Positions 1,469-10,893 of a stretch of DNA of 64,000 bases are shown here, piece by piece. The first letter of the stretch is position 1; each line of letters opens with the position of its first letter. This DNA is from Methylocella sp. (GTDB lineage Bacteria > Pseudomonadota > Alphaproteobacteria > Rhizobiales > Beijerinckiaceae), in contig JBBCGG010000001.1 of assembly GCA_037200525.1 (NCBI GenBank), forward strand, positions 3,278,501 through 3,342,500, read 5' to 3'. The notes under the pieces are model-generated. The model did no database searches, was not told the origin of the DNA, and worked only from the letters and a program-made list of their open reading frames with translations. Made by a program: the position numbers and the translations under genes.

Positions 1469-2515
1469 TCAGACCTCTTGCAGCAAAACGTCAAGATCGA
1501 GAGAGGAGCGTTTCCCCAGATCTTCCGCGTGAGCTTCGAGGAAGACCTCGGCTGAACGCCGACCCTCATCGCGCAGCATCGATAAAAACTCCCATTCCGC
1601 GTTGAGCTTGGAGGACGCGCCGAGCCCAACCATCATATCGCTCGCGATGCGATGGATGCGCATGCCGGCCCATTGCGCGCCTTCGCTGTCGCCGAGATTG
1701 GCGACGTTCCGGAGCAAGGCGATCATGCGCAATTCTTTCAAGAGAACCGAATTGAAAGACACTTCATTCAGGCGATTGAGAATTTCAGACGCCGTGCGGG
1801 GCGAACCCTCGCGTTCGACCGGGTTGATCTGGACGAGAATGGTGTCTTGCGATTTGCATTCTCTCACCAGAGACGTGATGGTGGGATTGCCGGAGTAACC
1901 GCCATCCCAGTAAGGCTCGCCGTCGATCTCTATGGCTTGAAACATCGTCGGCAGGCAGGCTGAGGCCAGCAACACGTCGGGCGTAATCGCGCGATTCCTA
2001 AACACGTGACCGCGACCCGTATGAACATTTGTAGCGGTGATGAAAAGCTTGATCGGCGCTTGCGCCAATCGTTCGAAGTCAATCGACTCGGCGAGAATGG
2101 CGCGGAGGGGATTGGTTCCCTTTGGATTGAGGTCATAGGGCGAAAACAAACGCGACATCAAATCCATTGCGACATAGACGGGAGACGAATCGAGCGTCCA
2201 GCGGCCGAGAAGAATGTCGAGCGGTCCGCGCCGTAACGGACTGTAGCGAGCCGCATCGGAGACGCGACGCCAAAATTGCTCCAGAGCTGCGCGGGCAGCT
2301 TCCGGGCCGCCCTTCGCGTGGCCGTCTACCAGCACGGCTGCATTCATGGCCCCGGCTGATGTACCTGAAATGCCGTCGATCCCGAGCCAGGGCTCTTCAA
2401 GCAGCCGATCCAGCACGCCCCAGGTGAAAGCGCCATGAGCCCCTCCGCCTTGGAGAGCCAGATCGACAAGAATAGGCGCGCGCCTAACGGCGGTCTCGGA
2501 CGACTCTGTGGGCAT
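1469..2515 (-). CDS. Patatin-like phospholipase
   Basis: A cytosolic serine acyl hydrolase with a Ser-Asp dyad. The glycine-rich oxyanion loop GGGAHG is at residues 23-28, the nucleophile elbow GTSAG at 51-55 (Ser53), and the catalytic Asp204 in DGG at 204-206. At 348 residues it is a single-domain bacterial patatin with no signal peptide. It is the first gene of a two-gene unit with the GntP permease 4 bases downstream, so it may release an acid that the permease moves; that link is inference. Likely substrates are phospholipid acyl esters or, as in PHB-making bacteria, storage-granule lipids. No missing residues are apparent. Confidence 0.9.
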   Translation of the reverse strand: MPTESSETAVRRAPILVDLALQGGGAHGAFTWGVLDRLLEEPWLGIDGISGTSAGAMNAAVLVDGHAKGGPEAARAALEQFWRRVSDAARYSPLRRGPLDILLGRWTLDSSPVYVAMDLMSRLFSPYDLNPKGTNPLRAILAESIDFERLAQAPIKLFITATNVHTGRGHVFRNRAITPDVLLASACLPTMFQAIEIDGEPYWDGGYSGNPTITSLVRECKSQDTILVQINPVEREGSPRTASEILNRLNEVSFNSVLLKELRMIALLRNVANLGDSEGAQWAGMRIHRIASDMMVGLGASSKLNAEWEFLSMLRDEGRRSAEVFLEAHAEDLGKRSSLDLDVLLQEV

Positions 2516-2764
2516 GTAACCCCGTAGAAGTCATTGCTTGAGTAACAGCGCAACACGGCGCAGCTTATAGCATGGACGCCCGATGAGCAAACTCCCGACC
2601 CGCATCGCTGCGTGCTTGCGCGGACAAGTTGCGTCATTGTTAAGAGGGGGTTCATCGCTATACGCGCTGGGCGCCGGCCGGCCGCAGAGTGTGCTGGCGG
2701 CATAGGGGACGTCGAGTGCGCCGTTGGCGCTAGTTGGTCATGGCCGAGGCCAAACCGGTCGGGA

Positions 2765-3178
2765 TCAACGAAGCGATGCGTTGAAGCAGATTAAATCGAT
2801 CTCGACCAAAGCGCGTCGGCCGAGCGCCGCCACGCCGACTGTAGTGCGGCTCGGCAAAGGACGATCTTGCGGGAAATGGCGGACGTAAACGCTGTTGAAG
2901 GCGGCGAAATCCCGCTCGAACTCGCTCAGATAGATGCGCACGAACACCGCATCGGCCAGCGCATAGCCCGCGTGGCGCAAGATGCGATGGATGTTCTCGA
3001 AACACATCTCGCTCTGCGCTTCGATGCCTGACCGCAGGGGAACTGCGGGTGCGTCGGGATCGGTCGGCAATTGTCCAGTGACATGCAGCCATCCATCCGC
3101 CTGAACGGCGTGTGAATACAGCGATGACGGCGGCGGCGGGCTCGCGTCAGCGGCGATATGATGGATTTTGCCGGTCAA
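2765..3178 (-). CDS. RidA/YjgF-family reactive imine deaminase-like protein
   Basis: A 137-residue protein with the full RidA fold pattern: HVTGQLPTDPD near the N-terminus, then FVRIYLSEF, then PSRTTVGVAALGRRALVEID. The Arg that holds the substrate carboxylate in RidA (in PSRTTVG) and the first Glu of the IEIE-like motif (VEID) are both present, so imine hydrolysis is plausible. RidA proteins hydrolyse 2-imino acids made by PLP enzymes or flavin oxidases. The start overlaps the stop of the upstream FAD oxidoreductase gene by 4 bases (ATGA), making it the last gene of the seven-gene operon. That pairing suggests it clears an imine made by the flavoprotein, which is inference. Confidence 0.9.
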   Translation of the reverse strand: MTGKIHHIAADASPPPPSSLYSHAVQADGWLHVTGQLPTDPDAPAVPLRSGIEAQSEMCFENIHRILRHAGYALADAVFVRIYLSEFERDFAAFNSVYVRHFPQDRPLPSRTTVGVAALGRRALVEIDLICFNASLR

Positions 3179-4599
3179 GAATGGATCCCTTTGGTGGCGG
3201 TGATCTCGTCAAAAAGGCCGCCGGATAGCGCCTCAATATGTCGCGCGATGTCGGGCGCGCCGGTCATTTCCCCGAAGCTGCCGCGCGTCATTGGGCCGAA
3301 AGCAAGCAGGTTCGGCCAAGGCAGCCCAACTTGATCCAGCACGCGGCTTCTTTGGTCGACTGCGAGGCCGAGGTTGGCGTCGTCAAGCCGCGCGATCCCG
3401 GCAGCGAGCAAAGCGGCGACCAGCGGGTTGGCGCGGAGGTCTTTTTCGGGTCCCGTGCACAATACGACGGCGTCGAAAGCGCAGTCTTCCGTTCGATTTC
3501 CCGGCTGCCTGAGCGTCGCGACAAAGCGGCCATCCCGCCGCGCCAGATGCGTCAATCCCGCCTGTTTTACGACTAGGTCGCCTGCTTGTCGGTCGCGGAC
3601 CAGAACTGCGTTCACCTGCGGCGCGATCCGGAACCTGTGCACCTCCCAGAATGGCAACAGTCGTCGAAGCGCGCGAGCCTTTTCGTTCGGCGGCAAGGCG
3701 TTCCAAGCCAGCGGGAGCTTGGCGCGGAGCGCGTCGACGATCGGATGCCAGCCTTTAACGGGGCCTTCGCTGCGAATGCGTCGGCGCAAAAGACGAACGA
3801 GGCCTAGCGCTGTTTTGGGAGGGGGCTGCCCATCGAAAATATCGATCGCGTCGAGGAACAATCCATGCTGGCGCGGCAGCAGCTTACGCCGCGACGCCGC
3901 AGTGATCGGCCCTAAATGTCCCTTCTCCCTTAAGCTGACGACGACATCGGCCATGGTGAGGCCCGTACCAACGACTAAGACAGAATCCGACGGAGCAATC
4001 GCAGCCAGCGCGTCCCTCGCCCATGGGTCGGGCGCGAACTTTGGATCGCTCTTCACATCCGCTTCGATCAGAGCAGGGATGAGCGGCGCGGCATGGCCAA
4101 AGCAAAGCGCGACAAGGTCCGCTTCGATGCGGGCGCCGTCGCTCAGCGACGCTATCCAGCCTTGGCCCTGCCGGGCAATGGAGGTAGCGGCGGCGCGCAC
4201 GTGCCGGAAGCGCACCCGCTCACCCGCAGCCGCAAGCGTCTGCCGGAGCATGTCGCCGACAAAGGAGCCGTAAACGTGGCGCGGCGCATAGAAATTGCCT
4301 TGACCGTCGTCGCTGCCCGCATCAGGCAAGACTCCATGCTCGAAGAACCAGCGCGTCGCACCTGTCGGATCGTCCTGGAACAACCCCATCCGATCGCTTG
4401 GGACGTTGATGCGATGCGCCGGATCATCGGTCCCATAGGCAATCCCGCGGCCGAGTTCCGCCGCCGGTTCGACGACGACTATATCGAGCGGACGGTCGTT
4501 GGCGCGAATAGCATGGATGACCAGCGCCGCGCCGGTGAATCCGCCCCCGATCACGACAACGCGGAGCGGAGCGACAGAACTAAAAGCGCCATACGTCAT
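3175..4599 (-). CDS. FAD/NAD(P)-binding oxidoreductase (COG4529-like)
   Basis: A 474-residue flavoprotein. The N-terminal dinucleotide fold carries VVIGGGFTGAAL at about residues 14-25, and a second nucleotide fold carries LVVGTGLTMADV near the middle. The segment GRGIAYGTDDPAHRINVPSDRMGLF is typical of the NAD_binding_9/COG4529 group, which includes HcaD-like and HpnW-like proteins of mostly unknown substrate. The C-terminal VLCTGPEKDL and NLLAFGPMTRGSFGEMTGAPDI fit an FAD-binding closing region. It overlaps the upstream DUF1116 gene and the downstream RidA gene by 4 bases each, so translation is probably coupled. A role in oxidising the imported compound to an imine is inference from that position. 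Confidence 0.85.
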   Translation of the reverse strand: MTYGAFSSVAPLRVVVIGGGFTGAALVIHAIRANDRPLDIVVVEPAAELGRGIAYGTDDPAHRINVPSDRMGLFQDDPTGATRWFFEHGVLPDAGSDDGQGNFYAPRHVYGSFVGDMLRQTLAAAGERVRFRHVRAAATSIARQGQGWIASLSDGARIEADLVALCFGHAAPLIPALIEADVKSDPKFAPDPWARDALAAIAPSDSVLVVGTGLTMADVVVSLREKGHLGPITAASRRKLLPRQHGLFLDAIDIFDGQPPPKTALGLVRLLRRRIRSEGPVKGWHPIVDALRAKLPLAWNALPPNEKARALRRLLPFWEVHRFRIAPQVNAVLVRDRQAGDLVVKQAGLTHLARRDGRFVATLRQPGNRTEDCAFDAVVLCTGPEKDLRANPLVAALLAAGIARLDDANLGLAVDQRSRVLDQVGLPWPNLLAFGPMTRGSFGEMTGAPDIARHIEALSGGLFDEITATKGIHS

Positions 4600-5795
4600 A
4601 TCTTACCCTTCAGCGCAGCCAGCGCCGCCGAGAAGCAGGCCACAGGCGCCTCGGCGACGCCAAGCCCGATCCAGCCCGTCTCGCCGTCCTTGTGCGCAAT
4701 GCCAGTGTGAATCCGCATAGAGATGTTTGCCTCGACCACCCGCTCCGCATCAAGGCCCAACCCGACGCCGGCCTCGCCGCACAGCACGGGCGCGATCGTT
4801 GGATGACGCTCGACAAACAGACGCCGCATCGCCAGCCCGACCCCGATTGCTTCGTCCCACGGCCTTCCCATAGCGCCAGCCAGTTCGGGCGAGGCATGCG
4901 CTATAGCTCCGCCAAGACCATATGCCTCCATGATGGCGCTGTCGCCAAGGTCCGCTTGCGCGTCGCGAAGCGTGAAGGGCGCGAAGAACCCGCCCTGCGG
5001 CACAACGGCGGCCGCCGTGAACCAACGCCGGCCAGCGCCCGCAATGCGAACTCCGCAGGTGACGCCGTTCCGGGAGATCGCCGTCACGATCGTCGAATCG
5101 GCGATTCCGTCGGCGCGGTCGAGGGCAAGTTTCGCAGCCGCCATAGCATAGTTGAGAAAGTGCTGAGGATTGGCGAAGAGCCACGCCCTCTCGGGACTGT
5201 CCAGATCTCCCAGCGCGCGGATGAAACTCGCCATGCCGCCAATATTGCGTTGATGAACATCGTCTCCCAAAGCGACGCCATCGCGGACGAGCGGGAGGAT
5301 AGGCAAGCCGCCCGGCGGCAACGCGCGGCTTAGGGCTGGCCCAAGCTTTTGATCGAGCCAGCGCAGACCCTCGGCGACGCCTTCATTGTAGACTCCAAAA
5401 CGCAGCGCCTTGCGGCCGCCCTCGGCCAGAGTGGCGTAAGCGATCCCGTCCCCGGCGCGGTTTTCGATGCGCATCACAGTTTGACTCGGACGCACGACGC
5501 CCGCCATCGGGGATACGGTTCCAAGATCGTGGTTCGACCGCAACCGGATCGATCCGGCCCGGATCAGCGCGCGCGCTTCATCAATGGTTCCCGCCCAGCC
5601 TTCATGGATAACAGCGCCGGCGAGCGCGTTGAGCACGACTGGCGGAATCGCATCCGCGGCGTCGAAAGGCGCGCCCGCGTGGCCGAGTTCGCCCTGTCCG
5701 AGATTGAGCGCGTCGGCGGCGCGCTCGAAACCGACCAGAACCGGATCGGCCTCTGCGATGCGACGGAGGGCGAGCGCATTGGCGTCGGATGGCAT
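4596..5795 (-). CDS. DUF1116 (AllG/YlbE-like) protein
   Basis: This matches the DUF1116 family, represented in E. coli by YlbE/AllG, which is encoded beside fdrA and ylbF and linked to oxamate carbamoyl transfer in allantoin breakdown. Family hallmarks seen are HEGWAGTIDEARALI, a VSPMAGVV segment, the DDVHQRNIGG block and the TAISRNGVTCGVRI block. I place the start at 5795 because GAGG lies 5 bases before it; a frame-compatible ATG at 5813 has no Shine-Dalgarno and overlaps the ABC ATPase stop. Length is then 399 residues, somewhat shorter than YlbE-type proteins. No FdrA or AllH partner is in the window, so this is a solo DUF1116 gene inside an ABC/FAD/RidA operon. Its reaction is unknown. 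Confidence 0.8.
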   Translation of the reverse strand: MPSDANALALRRIAEADPVLVGFERAADALNLGQGELGHAGAPFDAADAIPPVVLNALAGAVIHEGWAGTIDEARALIRAGSIRLRSNHDLGTVSPMAGVVRPSQTVMRIENRAGDGIAYATLAEGGRKALRFGVYNEGVAEGLRWLDQKLGPALSRALPPGGLPILPLVRDGVALGDDVHQRNIGGMASFIRALGDLDSPERAWLFANPQHFLNYAMAAAKLALDRADGIADSTIVTAISRNGVTCGVRIAGAGRRWFTAAAVVPQGGFFAPFTLRDAQADLGDSAIMEAYGLGGAIAHASPELAGAMGRPWDEAIGVGLAMRRLFVERHPTIAPVLCGEAGVGLGLDAERVVEANISMRIHTGIAHKDGETGWIGLGVAEAPVACFSAALAALKGKI

Positions 5796-5802
5796 GAAGA
5801 CC

Positions 5803-6582
5803 TCAAGTTGCATAGCGGGTCAGGAAACGGCGGGCTCGTTCGGTTTTCGGCGCCGTGAAGAAAGCCTCCGGTTCCCCAGTCTCGATAATGCGCCCGCCAT
5901 CGAAAAATACGACTGTATCGGCGACTTCGCGCGCGAAAGCCATCTCATGGGTCACGACCAGCATTGTTAGGCCTTCGGCCGCGAGATCGCGCATGACGTT
6001 CAAAACTTCGCCGACCATTTCAGGGTCGAGAGCGCTCGTCGGTTCATCGAACAGCAGCACCTTCGGCCGCATGGCGAGCGCCCGGCTGATCGCAACCCGC
6101 TGTTTCTGACCGCCCGAGAGGGTATGAGGAAAGGCGTCGGCCTTATCGAGCAGTCCGACGCGATCGAGAAGGACTCGGCCCTCTGCGATGACCTCGCCGC
6201 GCGGGCGCTTAAGGACGTGGATCGGCGCTTCGATCACATTTCCAAGCACTGTCAGATGCGGCCACAAGGCGAAGTGTTGAAACACCATGCTGACGTGGGT
6301 TCGCGCCGCGGCCAGTTCTCGGGGCGACATGCGCTGCATCCTGCCATTGGCGTCCGGCTTGACGCCCATCAGCGCGCCGCCGAGCTGGATCGCGCCGGAG
6401 GTTGGCTCCTCGAGCCAATTAATGCAGCGTAAAAACGTGGATTTGCCCGAGCCGCTCGGCCCGACGATGCATACCGTCGAGCCCTTGGCGACATCGAGGG
6501 ATACGTCGCGAAGAACCTCGACGCCATCGAATTGCTTGCAAACCATGCGAGCCGAAATGGCGGCGGGGATCTCTTTAAGCAC
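5803..6582 (-). CDS. Amino-acid ABC transporter ATP-binding protein (GlnQ/HisP type)
   Basis: A 259-residue ATPase. Walker [10 protein letters not shown] is at residues 41-49, the Q-loop sits in [13 protein letters not shown], the signature is [15 protein letters not shown], Walker B is [12 protein letters not shown], and the H-loop is in VVTHEM. The [16 protein letters not shown] and DPEMVGEV segments are those of polar amino-acid importers. It overlaps the upstream permease gene by 8 bases. It energises the importer formed by the two permeases and the binding protein encoded just upstream. All catalytic motifs are intact. Confidence 0.95.
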
Positions 6583-7231
6583 GCCGCACCCGCGCCACGG
6601 CTCCCAAACGGCGCACGCCCGCCTCGATGATCAAGGATAACATCCAGTACAATCCCACGGCCACGATAAAGGGTGCGAATGGCGAAAAATTGTTCGCATT
6701 GACAAAATTGGCCGCGAACGTGATTTCGGGCACGGTGATGATCATCAACAGGGCGCTGTCCTTGATCATTACGATGATCTGATTACCCACCATCAGCGCG
6801 GATGTCACGGCGATCTGCGGGAATATAATGCGCCAGTATAGCGCACCGCGCGTAAAGCCATAGGCCCGCGCCGCCTCGATGCCGTCCCGAGGCAGCGCCA
6901 TCCAAGCCGCGCGGAAAATTTCGACGAGATATGCGCTGGTATAGACCACGAGGGTGAGCAGCCCGGCCCCCCATGCATCAAGCCGCAGCCCCAATCCGGG
7001 CAGACCATAATAGACGAGATAGGCCAGCAGCAGAAACGGCACGCAGCGCAGGAAATCAACCAAGGCTTGCGCGAGCCGGGACACCGGCTTGGCCGCCTCG
7101 ACGATAACGATCGCGCCGAGAGCGCCAAGCGGGATGCTGGCCAGGGTGGCGAAAGCGACCAACGATACGGTGTTGGCGATCCCCACGAAGAACACGTCGC
7201 GTTCTTGCCAGACGGCGGCGAACCCATTCAT
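6575..7231 (-). CDS. Amino-acid ABC transporter permease (HisM/GlnP type), second subunit
   Basis: A 218-residue inner-membrane permease with about five hydrophobic helices and the cytoplasmic EAA loop ([23 protein letters not shown]), which contacts the ATPase. [17 protein letters not shown] is the usual start of the HisMQ-type core. It overlaps the first permease gene by 4 bases and the ATPase gene by 8. It should form a heterodimer with the product of the gene at 7228-7881. Confidence 0.93.
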
Positions 7232-7881
7232 GCCGCGGCATATCCATAGCGCCGCGCGATGATCCGCTCGATGATGTGTTGGCCGTGCACGATGACGGCG
7301 ACCAGCAGCGTGTAGATGATGGTTGCGGCGAGAAAGGGCGGCAGGGGCTCATAGGTCGCGGCCCCGATGCGACTCGCCGCCCGAGTGATTTCAACTACCC
7401 CGATGACTGCGACCGCGGGCGTGCCTTTCAGCATCGCCGTCATCTCATTCGCCAGCGGCCCCACGCTACTGCGCCAGAGCTGCGGCAAGACGATGCGGCG
7501 AAACAACACTGGGCTTGTCATGCCGCAGGCCCTGCCCGCCTCTATCTGGTCGCGCGGAAAACTCAGCAGACCGGCGCGCCAGATTTCGCAGTTGAACGCC
7601 GCCGTATTGAGCGTCAGGGCGAGAATTGCTGCCGGTATCGGTTCAAGCTCCAATCCCACTCCGGGGAGAACGAAGAAGATGAACAAGGTGAATGTGACGA
7701 GCGGCGTCGAGCGCACGAGGCTGACGTAGACGGCGACGGCGATATTGGCGACCGGCACGCGCCCCCATCGGATCAGCGCCAGGGCAAGGCCGAGCGGAAG
7801 CCCGAGCGCGATGCCGCAAAATGACAAGGCCGCCGTCGTAACGGCGCCCGCCAACAAGGTTTGATAGGCCGCCCAACTCAT
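7228..7881 (-). CDS. Amino-acid ABC transporter permease (HisQ/GlnP type), first subunit
   Basis: A 217-residue inner-membrane permease. The EAA loop reads QIEAGRACGMTSPVLFRRIVLPQ, and VSLVRSTPLVTFTLFIFF is the classic RGTPL-like helix of polar amino-acid transporters. It follows the binding-protein gene by 57 bases and overlaps the next permease gene by 4 (ATGA). Together with its neighbours it forms a complete importer. Confidence 0.94.
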   Translation of the reverse strand: MSWAAYQTLLAGAVTTAALSFCGIALGLPLGLALALIRWGRVPVANIAVAVYVSLVRSTPLVTFTLFIFFVLPGVGLELEPIPAAILALTLNTAAFNCEIWRAGLLSFPRDQIEAGRACGMTSPVLFRRIVLPQLWRSSVGPLANEMTAMLKGTPAVAVIGVVEITRAASRIGAATYEPLPPFLAATIIYTLLVAVIVHGQHIIERIIARRYGYAAA

Positions 7882-7938
7882 TGAACTACGCGCCGGGCCT
7901 TGCGTCGATCCATCTCCAGCCGATGCGCCAGCGCATCA

Positions 7939-8784
7939 TCATTTGCTGGGAGTGTCCGGCATGGTTTCGAACGCTCGCCCGAACCATTTCGTCTGGAGCG
8001 CGTAAAGCTGGCCGTCTTTGCGCGTTTTTGCGAGAAAATCGTCGAGGTAATTCAGCAACGCGTCATTTCCCTTGGCGACCGCCCAAGCCGCGTAGGTTGG
8101 CGCCGTCACAGCTTGGCCGAGCTTGAAGCGCTTCGGCTGCTCCCTGGTGAGACTGACCAGATTGACGACGCCGTTGACGACATAGTCGAGCCGGCCTGCC
8201 GCGAGGTCCTGATACGCCTCGGGAAAGGACGCATATTGCACCACTTTGCCGAGCTTGCCGCCGGTTTTGGCCAGCATCTGCGTCAGTTCCGTCAAAGCCG
8301 AATATGACGCTCCGCCGGCCTGCACGCCTACCGTTTTGCCGGACAAATCGGCGACGCTGTTAATGCTCGCATCGTCGGCCCGCGTGACATAATAATGCGT
8401 CGCGTCCGCGATCGGCATGGTGAAGTCGAGATCCTTCAGTCGCTCGGGCGTGATCACGGCGGCCGTCAGAGCGACATCGTACTTGCCGGTGGAGACCCCC
8501 GCGAGCAGGCCTGTCCAGGGTATGATCTGTTGCCGAATCGTGAACGGCCCTTGCTTACGCAGTAACGCCAAAAGGTCATGGTCGAGACCCATCGGCTTGC
8601 CGTCTTCGACGAATTCAAATGGCTTGTAATTATCCTCTGTCGCCACAACCATCTCGTTGCGGGCTTTGATCTCATCGAGAGTCGCGGCGGACGCGGCAGG
8701 CCCGATCGTCGCGATCGCGCCTAGATATAGGGCAGCCAAAGACCGCAGACCGCGCCGTCGCGCCGCAATTTTAAATTCAATCAC
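7939..8784 (-). CDS. Periplasmic amino-acid-type substrate-binding protein
   Basis: A 281-residue family 3 solute-binding protein. The N-terminus has Arg residues followed by a hydrophobic run and AASA, a typical Sec signal with cleavage near residue 33. The mature part has TEDNYKPFEFVEDGKPMGLDHD, GKYDVALTAAVITPERLKDLDFTMP, and GKTVGVQAGGASY, all standard for polar amino-acid binding proteins. It is the first gene of the seven-gene operon, so its ligand is probably the compound processed by the DUF1116, FAD and RidA proteins. The ligand cannot be read from sequence. Confidence 0.93.
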   Translation of the reverse strand: MIEFKIAARRRGLRSLAALYLGAIATIGPAASAATLDEIKARNEMVVATEDNYKPFEFVEDGKPMGLDHDLLALLRKQGPFTIRQQIIPWTGLLAGVSTGKYDVALTAAVITPERLKDLDFTMPIADATHYYVTRADDASINSVADLSGKTVGVQAGGASYSALTELTQMLAKTGGKLGKVVQYASFPEAYQDLAAGRLDYVVNGVVNLVSLTREQPKRFKLGQAVTAPTYAAWAVAKGNDALLNYLDDFLAKTRKDGQLYALQTKWFGRAFETMPDTPSK

Positions 8785-9087
8785 CGGTATTTTCCCTTAA
8801 TTCTTTATGTTCGGTCGAAATCGACAGGCCAGCCGCGACCTTCGTCGCGAGGTCGGATTCCGTGAAGCAGATTTTAGGCCAAGAGAGCGATCGCGCTGAT
8901 GCCTATTTCACTGATCCTGTCACATGGCTTGCGCGACCCTACGCGCTCACTCCTGTCCAGGAAAATCTCCTCCATTCTCACGGCGCTCGACGCGATCTAG
9001 GAAGAGATCGCGCCGGCGCAGGGAAAGACGGGTCCTGCAACGCTGGCTCAACATCGCTTTGCGACTGATTGCAGGCGAGATGACGCT
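8785..9087. other. Intergenic region upstream of the ABC/DUF1116/FAD/RidA operon
   Basis: 303 bases lie between the end of the ABC-F gene and the start of the binding-protein gene. Both genes are on the minus strand. The promoter of the seven-gene operon should lie in the part nearest 8785-8830, which is AT-richer. I see no convincing hexamers or operator, and no open frame here looks like a gene. Confidence 0.5.
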
Positions 9088-10893
9088 CTACCCCTCGCGG
9101 CGTATTTCGAGCGCGAGCCAGTCTTCTTCCGCCACCGCCAGCTCGACTTCGGCCTTGGCGAAAGCCGCCGTCGCTTGTGCAAATTTTGCGGGGTCGCGCG
9201 CATAAAGATTGGCGTCGTCGAGCGAGGCTTTCAGCTTGGCCATTTGCTTGCGCAGGGCGTCCATGCGCGAGGGCAAATTATCAAGCGCGTGTTTCTCCTT
9301 GAAATTCAGCTTCGGCTTCGCAGCGGGCTTTTCGGCGCGAGTAGGGGGCAACGGCTTCGGCTTCCCGATCGCGCTCGGAGACCCAATCGGAGCCGTCCCG
9401 ACGCCCGCCCCGCGTTGCGCCACCATGTCGGAATAGCCGCCGGCATATTCGACCCAGTGGCCAGCGCCTTCGGCGAGAAGGACGGAGGTAGCAACTCGAT
9501 CGAGAAAATCGCGGTCGTGGCTCACAATCAACAAAGTGCCTTTGTAGTCGCCCAGCATCTCCTGCAGCAGGTCGAGGGTTTCGAGATCGAGATCATTCGT
9601 CGGTTCATCGAGCACGAGGAGATTAGAGGGCCGCGCTAAGGCCCGCGCGAGCATCAACCGTCCGCGTTCGCCGCCCGACAGGCGCCCGATTGGCGTGCGA
9701 GCCTGTTCGGGACCAAATAGAAAATCCTTCATGTAGCCCATGACGTGTTTGCGCTCGCCGTTGATCTCCACGAAATCGCTGCCGCCGCCGGTCAGCGCAT
9801 CTTTCAGGAGCGTCTTCGGATCAAGGCTCGCGCGGCCCTGATCCAGCGTCGCCATCTGGAGATTGGCGCCAAGCTGAACGGTTCCGGAGTCAGGGGCAAG
9901 CACGCCGGTCAGAATGCTGATCAACGTCGTCTTGCCGGCTCCGTTGGCGCCGATGACTCCCATGGCGTCGCCGCGGAGGAGACGGGTGGAAAACCCTTTG
10001 ACGATCGGTCGTTCGCCAAAAGATTTCGAAATCGCCTCCGCCTCGATGACGAGCTTACCGGAAACCTTGCCTTCGCTGGCGACGAGCCTCACTTCGCCCG
10101 TGGCGCCCTGGCGCTGCCGTCGCTCCGTACGCATCGTATTGAGGCCCGAGAGTCGTTTCTGATTGCGCTTGCGCCGCGCGGTGACGCCATAGCGCAGCCA
10201 ATGTTCCTCGGCGACGATTTTCCGGTCGAACTTATGCTGTTGCCGTTCTTCCTCTTCCAGTTCTTGGTCGCGCCAGGCTTCGAACTCGGAGAAGCCTCGT
10301 GCAAGGTTGCGGGTGCGGCCACGATCAAGCCAAACGGTGCTTCGCGACAAGTTCTGCAAGAACCGCCGGTCATGGCTGATGATGACGAGAGCGGAGCGCA
10401 GCCTCTTGAGTTCGGCTTCCAGCCATTCGATGGCGGGCAGATCGAGATGGTTGGTCGGTTCGTCGAGCAGCAGAACATCGGGCTCCGGCGCCATAACACG
10501 CGCCAGCGCCGCCCGGCGCGCTTCGCCGCCGGAAAGGTTCGCCGGATTTTCATCGCCGCTGAGGCCGAGTTCGTTCAAGAGGCTCCGCGCTCGATATGGA
10601 TCATCGTTTGGACCTAGCCCGGCTTCGACATAGGCGAAAGACGTCGCGAAGGCGGAGAGATCGGGCTCCTGCGGCAAATACCGCACGTTGGCGTCGGGGT
10701 GCATGAAGCGCGTTCCGCCATCGGATTCGAGAAGGCCCGCGGCGATCTTTAGGAGCGTCGATTTGCCGGAGCCGTTGCGGCCGACGAGACAGAGACGCTC
10801 CCCGGCAGAAACGGAGAGATCGGCGGCCTCGAGTAAAGGCCGTCCGCCGAGTGTGAGCGAGATATTCTGCAACAGCAGAAGAGGGGGCGCCAT
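9088..10893 (-). CDS. ABC-F family ATPase (Uup-like)
   Basis: A cytosolic tandem ABC protein of 601 residues with no membrane segments. Both cassettes are complete: GRNGSGKST, LSGGEARR and LLLDEPTNHLD in the first; GANGAGKTT, LSGGERGR and LVLDEPTNDLD in the second. The charged linker and the C-terminal region (about residues 520-600, Lys/Pro-rich then an Ala/Lys/Glu helix that suggests a coiled coil) are characteristic of Uup. ABC-F proteins act on ribosomes, and Uup has also been linked to precise excision and ribosome assembly. It stands alone; the gene to its left begins 303 bases away and the gene to its right is divergent. Confidence 0.93.
   Translation of the reverse strand: MAPPLLLLQNISLTLGGRPLLEAADLSVSAGERLCLVGRNGSGKSTLLKIAAGLLESDGGTRFMHPDANVRYLPQEPDLSAFATSFAYVEAGLGPNDDPYRARSLLNELGLSGDENPANLSGGEARRAALARVMAPEPDVLLLDEPTNHLDLPAIEWLEAELKRLRSALVIISHDRRFLQNLSRSTVWLDRGRTRNLARGFSEFEAWRDQELEEEERQQHKFDRKIVAEEHWLRYGVTARRKRNQKRLSGLNTMRTERRQRQGATGEVRLVASEGKVSGKLVIEAEAISKSFGERPIVKGFSTRLLRGDAMGVIGANGAGKTTLISILTGVLAPDSGTVQLGANLQMATLDQGRASLDPKTLLKDALTGGGSDFVEINGERKHVMGYMKDFLFGPEQARTPIGRLSGGERGRLMLARALARPSNLLVLDEPTNDLDLETLDLLQEMLGDYKGTLLIVSHDRDFLDRVATSVLLAEGAGHWVEYAGGYSDMVAQRGAGVGTAPIGSPSAIGKPKPLPPTRAEKPAAKPKLNFKEKHALDNLPSRMDALRKQMAKLKASLDDANLYARDPAKFAQATAAFAKAEVELAVAEEDWLALEIRREG

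Follow-up and report, generated by a model that had tools for sequence, protein, structure and literature searches.

A conserved operon type in Methylocella pairs an AllG protein that lacks FdrA and AllH partners with a Rid-family protein

Among the closest described relatives of the locus reported here is AllFGH (FdrA-YlbE-YlbF) of Escherichia coli, which converts oxalurate to oxamate and carbamoyl phosphate and back; in 2024, its AllG was identified as one of the three subunits required for oxamic transcarbamylase (PMC11326118). The papers that we consulted on DUF1116, the family of AllG, treat this AllFGH set. In the Rut pathway of uracil breakdown, ureidoacrylate is formed from uracil by RutA/F and hydrolysed by RutB, and 3-aminoacrylate is then deaminated by RutC, a Rid protein (PMC8113886). 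The nearest prior statement found is that Rid genes cluster with genes of flavin adenine dinucleotide (FAD) amine oxidases and of carbamoyl phosphate (PMC4433059). Here we describe a locus in a 64,000-nucleotide stretch of a Methylocella sp. genome (assembly GCA_037200525.1, contig JBBCGG010000001.1, positions 3,278,501 to 3,342,500; hereafter the window), where seven minus-strand open reading frames, running from position 8784 to 2765, encode an importer followed by AllG, a flavoprotein, and RidA.

Relative to AllFGH, the AllG of this operon is homologous over its full length and shares core residues, but AllH was not found in its genome and FdrA has only weak partial matches there, no carbamate kinase is found among the scanned neighbors, and the protein falls in a separate clade with a dozen switched positions. 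Relative to Rut, in which RutA is flavin-dependent and RutB removes a carbamoyl group, the same three kinds of step are proposed (flavin monooxygenase, carbamoyl removal, and Rid deamination), but the first two enzymes would come from other families, the operon has its own ATP-binding cassette (ABC) importer, and its Rid is only 28% identical to RutC. As far as we searched, this is a real, conserved, and apparently undescribed type of catabolic operon, ordinary in kind and unusual for its AllG without partners. The literature searched, mostly without subscription papers, gave no description of this gene set among the matches listed, in keeping with an earlier note on this DNA, which had known of no described pathway with the set. 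The operon probably frees nitrogen from a compound. Our reading, with a probability of roughly 0.38, is that it imports and breaks down, as a nitrogen source, a carboxylate-bearing nitrogen compound other than an ordinary alpha-amino acid, by a logic like that of Rut.

A compact operon with a stand-alone AllG

The seven genes are packed as a single operon, as the earlier note had it. The sole clear gap, of 57 bases, separates the genes of the binding protein and permease A; the remaining junctions overlap by 4 (permease A/permease B), 8 (permease B/ATPase), 11 (ATPase/AllG), 4 (AllG/flavoprotein), and 4 bases (flavoprotein/RidA). If AllG starts instead at an internal ATG at 5795, roughly where the alignment of relatives starts (their rows are mostly clipped at match ends), the ATPase and AllG genes are separated by 7 bases. 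Consensus scans of positions 2400 to 9150 found one sigma-70 promoter-like site, on the opposite strand (1.7 expected), and two intrinsic-terminator-like sites (6.5 expected); none of them lies where the ATPase and AllG genes meet. A transcript break at that junction, an outcome that the earlier note had said would count against its proposal, thus has neither space nor a terminator-like site. The G+C content of the operon, 58–66% per kilobase, is similar to that of the remainder of the first 20 kb. A gene for a patatin-like phospholipase (1469 to 2515) lies on the same strand, 249 bases past RidA, and is outside the conserved set. Searches of the genome for methane/ammonia monooxygenase gave no matches, and control genomes gave none either.

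AllG (4596 to 5813, minus strand) matches PF06545 over the entire profile (1–215 of 215; 2.1e-58, 197.9 bits, cut-off 27); like the other six proteins, it exceeds the curated Pfam cut-off of its family. NCBIfam gives no family for it. The protein is solo genome-wide: AllH (PF11392) has no match in the genome, with a positive E. coli control, and a query with E. coli FdrA returned only two partial matches of 25–26% identity (residues 115–261 and 114–294), both distant from the operon. The earlier claim of a DUF1116 protein without its usual partners is thereby borne out. Since AllF (FdrA) and AllH are not encoded alongside, we rejected the operon as an oxamic transcarbamylase.

Sequence comparison of 20 clade members (L059 omitted) and 45 FdrA-type AllGs separates a common core from positions that differ. 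FdrA-type here leaves out L085, which has no FdrA in its short flanks. Counting Met as 1, residues common to both groups include E71, G183, D184, H187, R189, N249, W264, G290, D291, S292, G299, and G301. Twelve positions are fixed for different residues, for example S101/G, P216/D, H218/F, C253/F, and H369/N, and positions conserved in FdrA-type proteins, such as W at 52 and GP at 58–59, are not retained. A kept core with switched positions would fit a related chemistry acting on a different substrate. The predicted model of AllG (predicted local distance difference test, pLDDT, 88; predicted template modeling score 0.90) has a single fold match in the PDB at E ≤ 0.001, 3clq of Enterococcus faecalis, which has the same fold (template modeling score, TM, 0.91; 32% identity) and is also the sole strong sequence match. 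The record title of 3clq gives a protein of unknown function, so the search for a known enzyme fold yielded no function by this route.

A stand-alone AllG might still make carbamoyl phosphate with some other CoA-ligase-like or unknown partner, while RidA, outside the pathway, protects carbamoyl-phosphate metabolism. Such a link between Rid and carbamoyl phosphate exists in Salmonella (PMC4433059), and the two weak partial FdrA matches elsewhere in the genome could be counted on its side. We nonetheless consider this very unlikely, as neither FdrA, AllH, nor an AllK/ArcC-type carbamate kinase is found in the clade loci mapped, and the clade does not retain the W and GP of FdrA-type AllGs.

Another AllG of the genome, 35% identical, is encoded about 1.1 Mb away and is also solo (L061, G000:C1:4371000-4390000; AllG at 8767-10191). 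Its neighbors are genes for a MarR regulator, an amidase, an amidohydrolase, and a GMC oxidoreductase, with a Rieske oxygenase/reductase pair and an NMT1-type importer further away. MarR and amidohydrolase genes lie within about 7 kb of AllG in all four relatives of this locus that were fetched (L109-L112), and in L109 a family-3 importer directly follows AllG. The AllG frames of L112 (G296) and L113 (G340) contain two and one in-frame TGA codons, respectively, and these copies may be decaying.

Association of AllG and Rid across relatives

A search of named genomes with AllG yielded 20 loci, of which 19 (L041-L059) are 56–70% identical over the best segment. The other, L060, is 35% identical, has FdrA, and is outside the clade. 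Further genome searches added L062 (71%) and re-found L058 (as L063) and L056 (as L081/L114), giving a clade of 21 members including the window. By record title, 19 of these are from Methylobacterium, Jiella, Aureimonas, a Rhizobiaceae bacterium, a Rhodospirillales bin, Rhodovulum, a Rhodobacteraceae bin, and two Zavarzinia, as well as a Burkholderiales bin, Caballeronia, Pandoraea, four Pseudomonas, two Thiomicrorhabdus, and a Hydrogenophilales bin, which we take to represent the alpha-, beta-, and gammaproteobacteria. In overlapping samples drawn at the level of family (199 genomes), order (397), class (385), and phylum (398), the only matches of clade-level identity listed are in the genome of the window and in G573, G473, and G743. 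Nine further genomes of the window's genus were sampled, and none has an AllG match at E 1e-20. The AllG-Rid cluster is rare and patchy across these samples, and such patchiness, with 56–71% identity over three classes, suggests that the cluster has spread horizontally among them.

AllG and Rid are consistently neighbors within the clade. Where AllG has 4 kb or more of sequence on both sides, Rid is matched within 5 kb at all 18 distinct clade loci and at none of the 23 other AllG loci (L053 and L055 were excluded for short flanks, and removal of duplicates L063 and L114 reduced the count from 20 to 18). FdrA shows a different distribution, being near AllG in 0 of the 18 and 12 of the 23. In the whole clade, 20 of 21 members have Rid; the one without, L055, is on a 3.6-kb contig that ends 383 bases beyond the AllG match. 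As far as contigs extend, neither FdrA nor AllH is present at any clade locus. Because the genome has only four Rid-family matches in 5.24 Mb, including that of the operon, chance adjacency of Rid and AllG is unlikely, and the counts among relatives rule out an accidental neighborhood. The earlier note had proposed a pathway-like set and had named accidental adjacency as the finding that would overturn it; the set has stood up to the comparison.

Phylogenies recover the same association. The AllGs of AllG-Rid clusters are monophyletic, as are their Rids. In an 83-row tree, the 21 AllGs are on one side of a branch (99 in the Shimodaira–Hasegawa-like approximate likelihood ratio test), and in a reduced tree, the remaining 20 are supported at 100/100. 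The reduced tree leaves out nine rows (L002, L028, L029, L030, L032, L039, L040, L059, and L097), comprising six with long branches, two joined to one of those, and L059 of the clade. The three nearest relatives of the window AllG are L041, L042, and L062. The 20 operon Rids are likewise on one side of a branch (98/100) relative to 11 others, which include E. coli RidA, RutC, and the other three Rids of the genome, some of them long-branched.

A second type of Rid is present in L041, L042, L052, L058, and L062, sitting in or beside the AllG cluster of these five relatives, and is not in the window. One of the other Rids of the genome, 1.7 Mb away, groups with the second-type Rids of L041, L042, L052, and L062 (98/93). 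This second-type Rid of the genome adjoins an FmdA/AmdA-type amidase gene at L121:7863-9607 (G000:C1, about 4.986 Mb).

Gene order, importer, and flavoprotein differ among clusters, so AllG and Rid form the constant core and the rest varies. A binding protein of family 3 is near AllG in 12 of 21 clusters and one of NMT1 type in 9 of 21; L058 has both and L044 neither, by the queries used. The NAD_binding_9 flavoprotein adjoins in 9 of 21 clusters, a FAD_binding_3 protein in 8 of 21, and at least one of the two in 14 of 21. The window, L041, L042, and L062 share the order importer-AllG-FAD-Rid, and L043 and L045-L049 have importer-AllG-Rid. In L044, AllG-Rid is behind a GntR/UTRA gene, with weak TauB/TauC-like matches on the opposite strand. 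Two orders begin with an NMT1-type protein, NMT1-FAD3-AllG-TauC-TauB-FAD-Rid (L053, L056, and L057) and NMT1-FAD3-AllG-TauC-TauB-Rid-ferredoxin reductase (L050, L051, L054, and L059). In the AllG-FAD-Rid clusters of L052 and L058, the family-3 importer is divergent and downstream, respectively. The constancy of the pair could also be explained by detoxification or metabolite repair, in which AllG-Rid clears a reactive N-carbamoyl or imine by-product and the linkage to importers is secondary, and L044, with no more than the weak opposite-strand matches alongside, would be in line with this. But a binding protein of one or the other importer type is near AllG in 20 of 21 clusters, which makes a repair function highly improbable in our judgment.

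Several relatives have additional genes. Rhizobiaceae CPCC 101076 (L058:1-19000) has a superset with NMT1 and family-3 importers, a TRZ/ATZ-type amidohydrolase, two Rids, AllG, the flavoprotein, DUF1989, a 2-hydroxyacid dehydrogenase, and an Asp/Glu/hydantoin racemase; it is the best place for guessing the substrate. The DUF1989 proteins of L052 and L058 are nearest to a urea amidolyase-associated model, under its cut-off. In the Hydrogenophilales bin (L059:4976-6081), AllG is read in two overlapping frames, reflecting a frameshift or draft error. Immediately downstream of the AllG-Rid cluster of Thiomicrorhabdus heinhorstiae, a 782-residue frame with EutB and EutC domains (L050:16580-18925), an apparent EutBC fusion, lies beside an EutA-like gene; in the sister cluster L051, downstream open reading frames differ in size and strand. 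Outside the clade, a Shewanella plasmid (L108) has AllH-FdrA-AllG-carbamate kinase beside genes for a ring-opening amidohydrolase and a nucleobase symporter, and classical AllFGH sets may have roles beyond oxalurate.

Importer, flavoprotein, and Rid

The importer comprises a periplasmic solute-binding protein of family 3 (7939 to 8784; PF00497 SBP_bac_3, 4.9e-31, 107.7 bits, cut-off 26.4), permease A (7228 to 7881; PF00528 BPD_transp_1, 1.1e-18), permease B (6575 to 7231; same family, 9.4e-17), and an ATPase (5803 to 6582; PF00005 ABC_tran, 4.2e-33, 115.3 bits, cut-off 25), all on the minus strand; the two permeases score 61.8 and 68 bits against a cut-off of 26.4. In binding proteins for polar amino acids, an Arg presumably binds the carboxylate and an Asp the alpha-ammonium of the ligand. 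Here the Arg, in an IT-ER stretch, is kept, but where glutamine-binding proteins have the Asp (GRVDAAMHD in 4f3p), all 11 binding proteins aligned, including that of the window, have G, N, or T (L062 was not aligned), such that the Arg-plus-Asp signature is incomplete. Because the Arg is kept and the ammonium-binding Asp is missing, the ligand is expected to be a carboxylate without a free alpha-ammonium, and an ordinary amino acid is unlikely. This casts doubt on an ordinary polar amino acid as the ligand of what the earlier note had termed a polar amino acid-type importer.

Ectoine is a compound of this kind, having a carboxylate and no free alpha-amine. One could thus imagine that a carboxylated cyclic amidine is taken up by an Ehu-like importer and opened, with AllG opening the amidine or amide, and that the amino product is transaminated and oxidized. 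The importer subunits score next to Ehu models, and L041, L042, and L062 have a gene for a divergent MocR regulator that scores best against EhuR (411.6–425.8 bits); in addition, L042 has an aldehyde dehydrogenase gene directly downstream of Rid, and class III aminotransferase genes are near the clusters of L042 and L045. However, every Ehu and EhuR cut-off is missed, which led us to reject the ectoine system proper. EhuA scores 299.4 of 345.4 bits and EhuB 55.8 of 190.9, EhuC and EhuD are also under, and the MocR proteins fall below 480. Best NCBIfam models are cystine permease (155 bits, cut-off 300) followed by EhuD (125, cut-off 205) for permease A, EhuD (104, cut-off 205) for permease B, and TcyN (307, cut-off 406), ahead of EhuA, for the ATPase. 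MocR has no match in the window, a TetR-type gene is present instead in seven relatives and the GntR/UTRA gene in L044, and the aminotransferase of L045 is on the opposite strand. Enzymes of ectoine degradation were not specifically searched for. On balance, an ectoine-like route is unlikely.

The flavoprotein (3175 to 4599, minus strand; PF13454 NAD_binding_9, COG4529-like, 6.8e-36, 124 bits, cut-off 21.8) is a predicted class B flavin monooxygenase. The best solved relative found with its sequence profile is 8cp2, the L-aspartate N-hydroxylase FzmM (8.5e-11), and FzmM is also the first fold match to its model (pLDDT 82.9; E 3.5e-22, TM 0.69/0.56), followed by KtzI, PvdA, SsDesB, and SidA. 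In the Foldseek ranking, rows 1 to 16 are N-hydroxylases of aspartate or ornithine or else SsDesB, which we take to be an N-hydroxylase, and the first disulfide reductase is at row 17. The GGGFTG and GTGLTMAD stretches are presumably dinucleotide-binding motifs, for FAD and nicotinamide adenine dinucleotide phosphate (NADPH). FzmM is a class B monooxygenase (PMC10404684), and the flavoprotein is predicted to be nearer to N-hydroxylating monooxygenases of this class than to amine oxidases. The resemblance is distant, with 19% identity and a length of 474 versus about 600 residues at the TM given, and the context of the operon looks catabolic rather than biosynthetic. Eight relatives have, instead or additionally, a FAD_binding_3 protein of class A monooxygenase type (by Pfam in L050 and by homology in the others), and L043 has a GMC oxidoreductase gene on the opposite strand.

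The earlier note had instead proposed that the flavoprotein, as an amine oxidase, makes an imine that RidA hydrolyses, with AllG performing a carbamoyl or oxamate step. Clustering of Rid genes with those of FAD amine oxidases (PMC4433059) is compatible with such a role, and Pfam DAO matches residues 13–52, the start of the FAD-binding region. It is disfavored by the fold, which matches NADPH-dependent N-hydroxylases first, and by the seven of 21 clusters that have Rid and neither flavoprotein family; we find it distinctly unlikely.

The last gene encodes a Rid-family enamine/imine deaminase (2765 to 3178, minus strand; PF01042 Ribonuc_L-PSP, 6.5e-27, 94.4 bits, cut-off 27.3) that misses the subfamily model TIGR00004 of NCBIfam (88.2 bits, cut-off 106.25). 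Aligned with E. coli RidA and RutC, it has the equivalent of the RidA Arg105, so that the earlier identification as RidA extends to the catalytic residue. The Arg is invariant in all 18 of the 20 operon Rids that were aligned (L049 and L062 are outside the alignment), and its role in deamination by Rid proteins is described (PMC4433059, PMC8113886).

A candidate nitrogen-scavenging pathway

Under our reading of a Rut-like breakdown, the substrate is most likely a (cyclic) ureide, an amidine, or an N-acyl/N-carbamoyl compound, and we infer this class, the order of steps, and catalysis by AllG alone. The flavin monooxygenase would oxygenate the ring or a nitrogen. The stand-alone AllG would then remove a carbamoyl or comparable amide group, like RutB in Rut or AllFGH on oxalurate, and the dedicated Rid would hydrolyse the leftover enamine/imine to a keto compound and ammonia. 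If a carbamoyl or acyl group were taken off an N-carbamoyl-enamine, the product would be just what Rid proteins act on, which could account for the constant pairing of the two proteins. Helper genes of ureide/amidine type in L052 and L058, including the TRZ/ATZ-type amidohydrolase and Asp/Glu/hydantoin racemase of the latter, are consistent with this class of substrates. Thiomicrorhabdus are chemolithoautotrophs, and the presence of the cluster in these autotrophs favors a role in nitrogen supply.

Several observations weigh against this proposal. We know of no activity for AllG without FdrA and AllH, and its occurrence without a nearby FdrA is not exclusive to the clade, as 11 of the 23 other long-flank loci lack FdrA, none of them with Rid. 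By Pfam and NCBIfam, none of the seven genes is a homolog of RutA or RutB. Neither flavoprotein family is in the clusters of L043-L049, indicating either that some clusters do without oxygenation or that the enzyme for it is encoded at another site. The missing Asp of the binding protein is deduced from sequence, and one profile alignment shifts by one position at a gap there, which would put Asn opposite the Asp. Retained residues of AllG need not be catalytic, as the catalytic subunit of AllFGH is not established in the available parts of PMC11326118.

A stronger version of the proposal is that stand-alone AllG needs no partner to remove a carbamoyl group or cleave an amide, a reaction for which its fold would be new, and that together with its dedicated Rid it is the core of an undescribed oxidative pathway for scavenging nitrogen from ureides or amidines, spread horizontally across proteobacteria, including Thiomicrorhabdus. 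We regard this version as possible, though doubtful. Seen without FdrA and AllH, and with Rid wherever the contig suffices, the clade is well suited to studying the role of AllG on its own. Likewise, the clusters give a physiological setting for a Rid whose substrate should be made by an enzyme, and they name a testable pathway of nitrogen acquisition in environmental bacteria.

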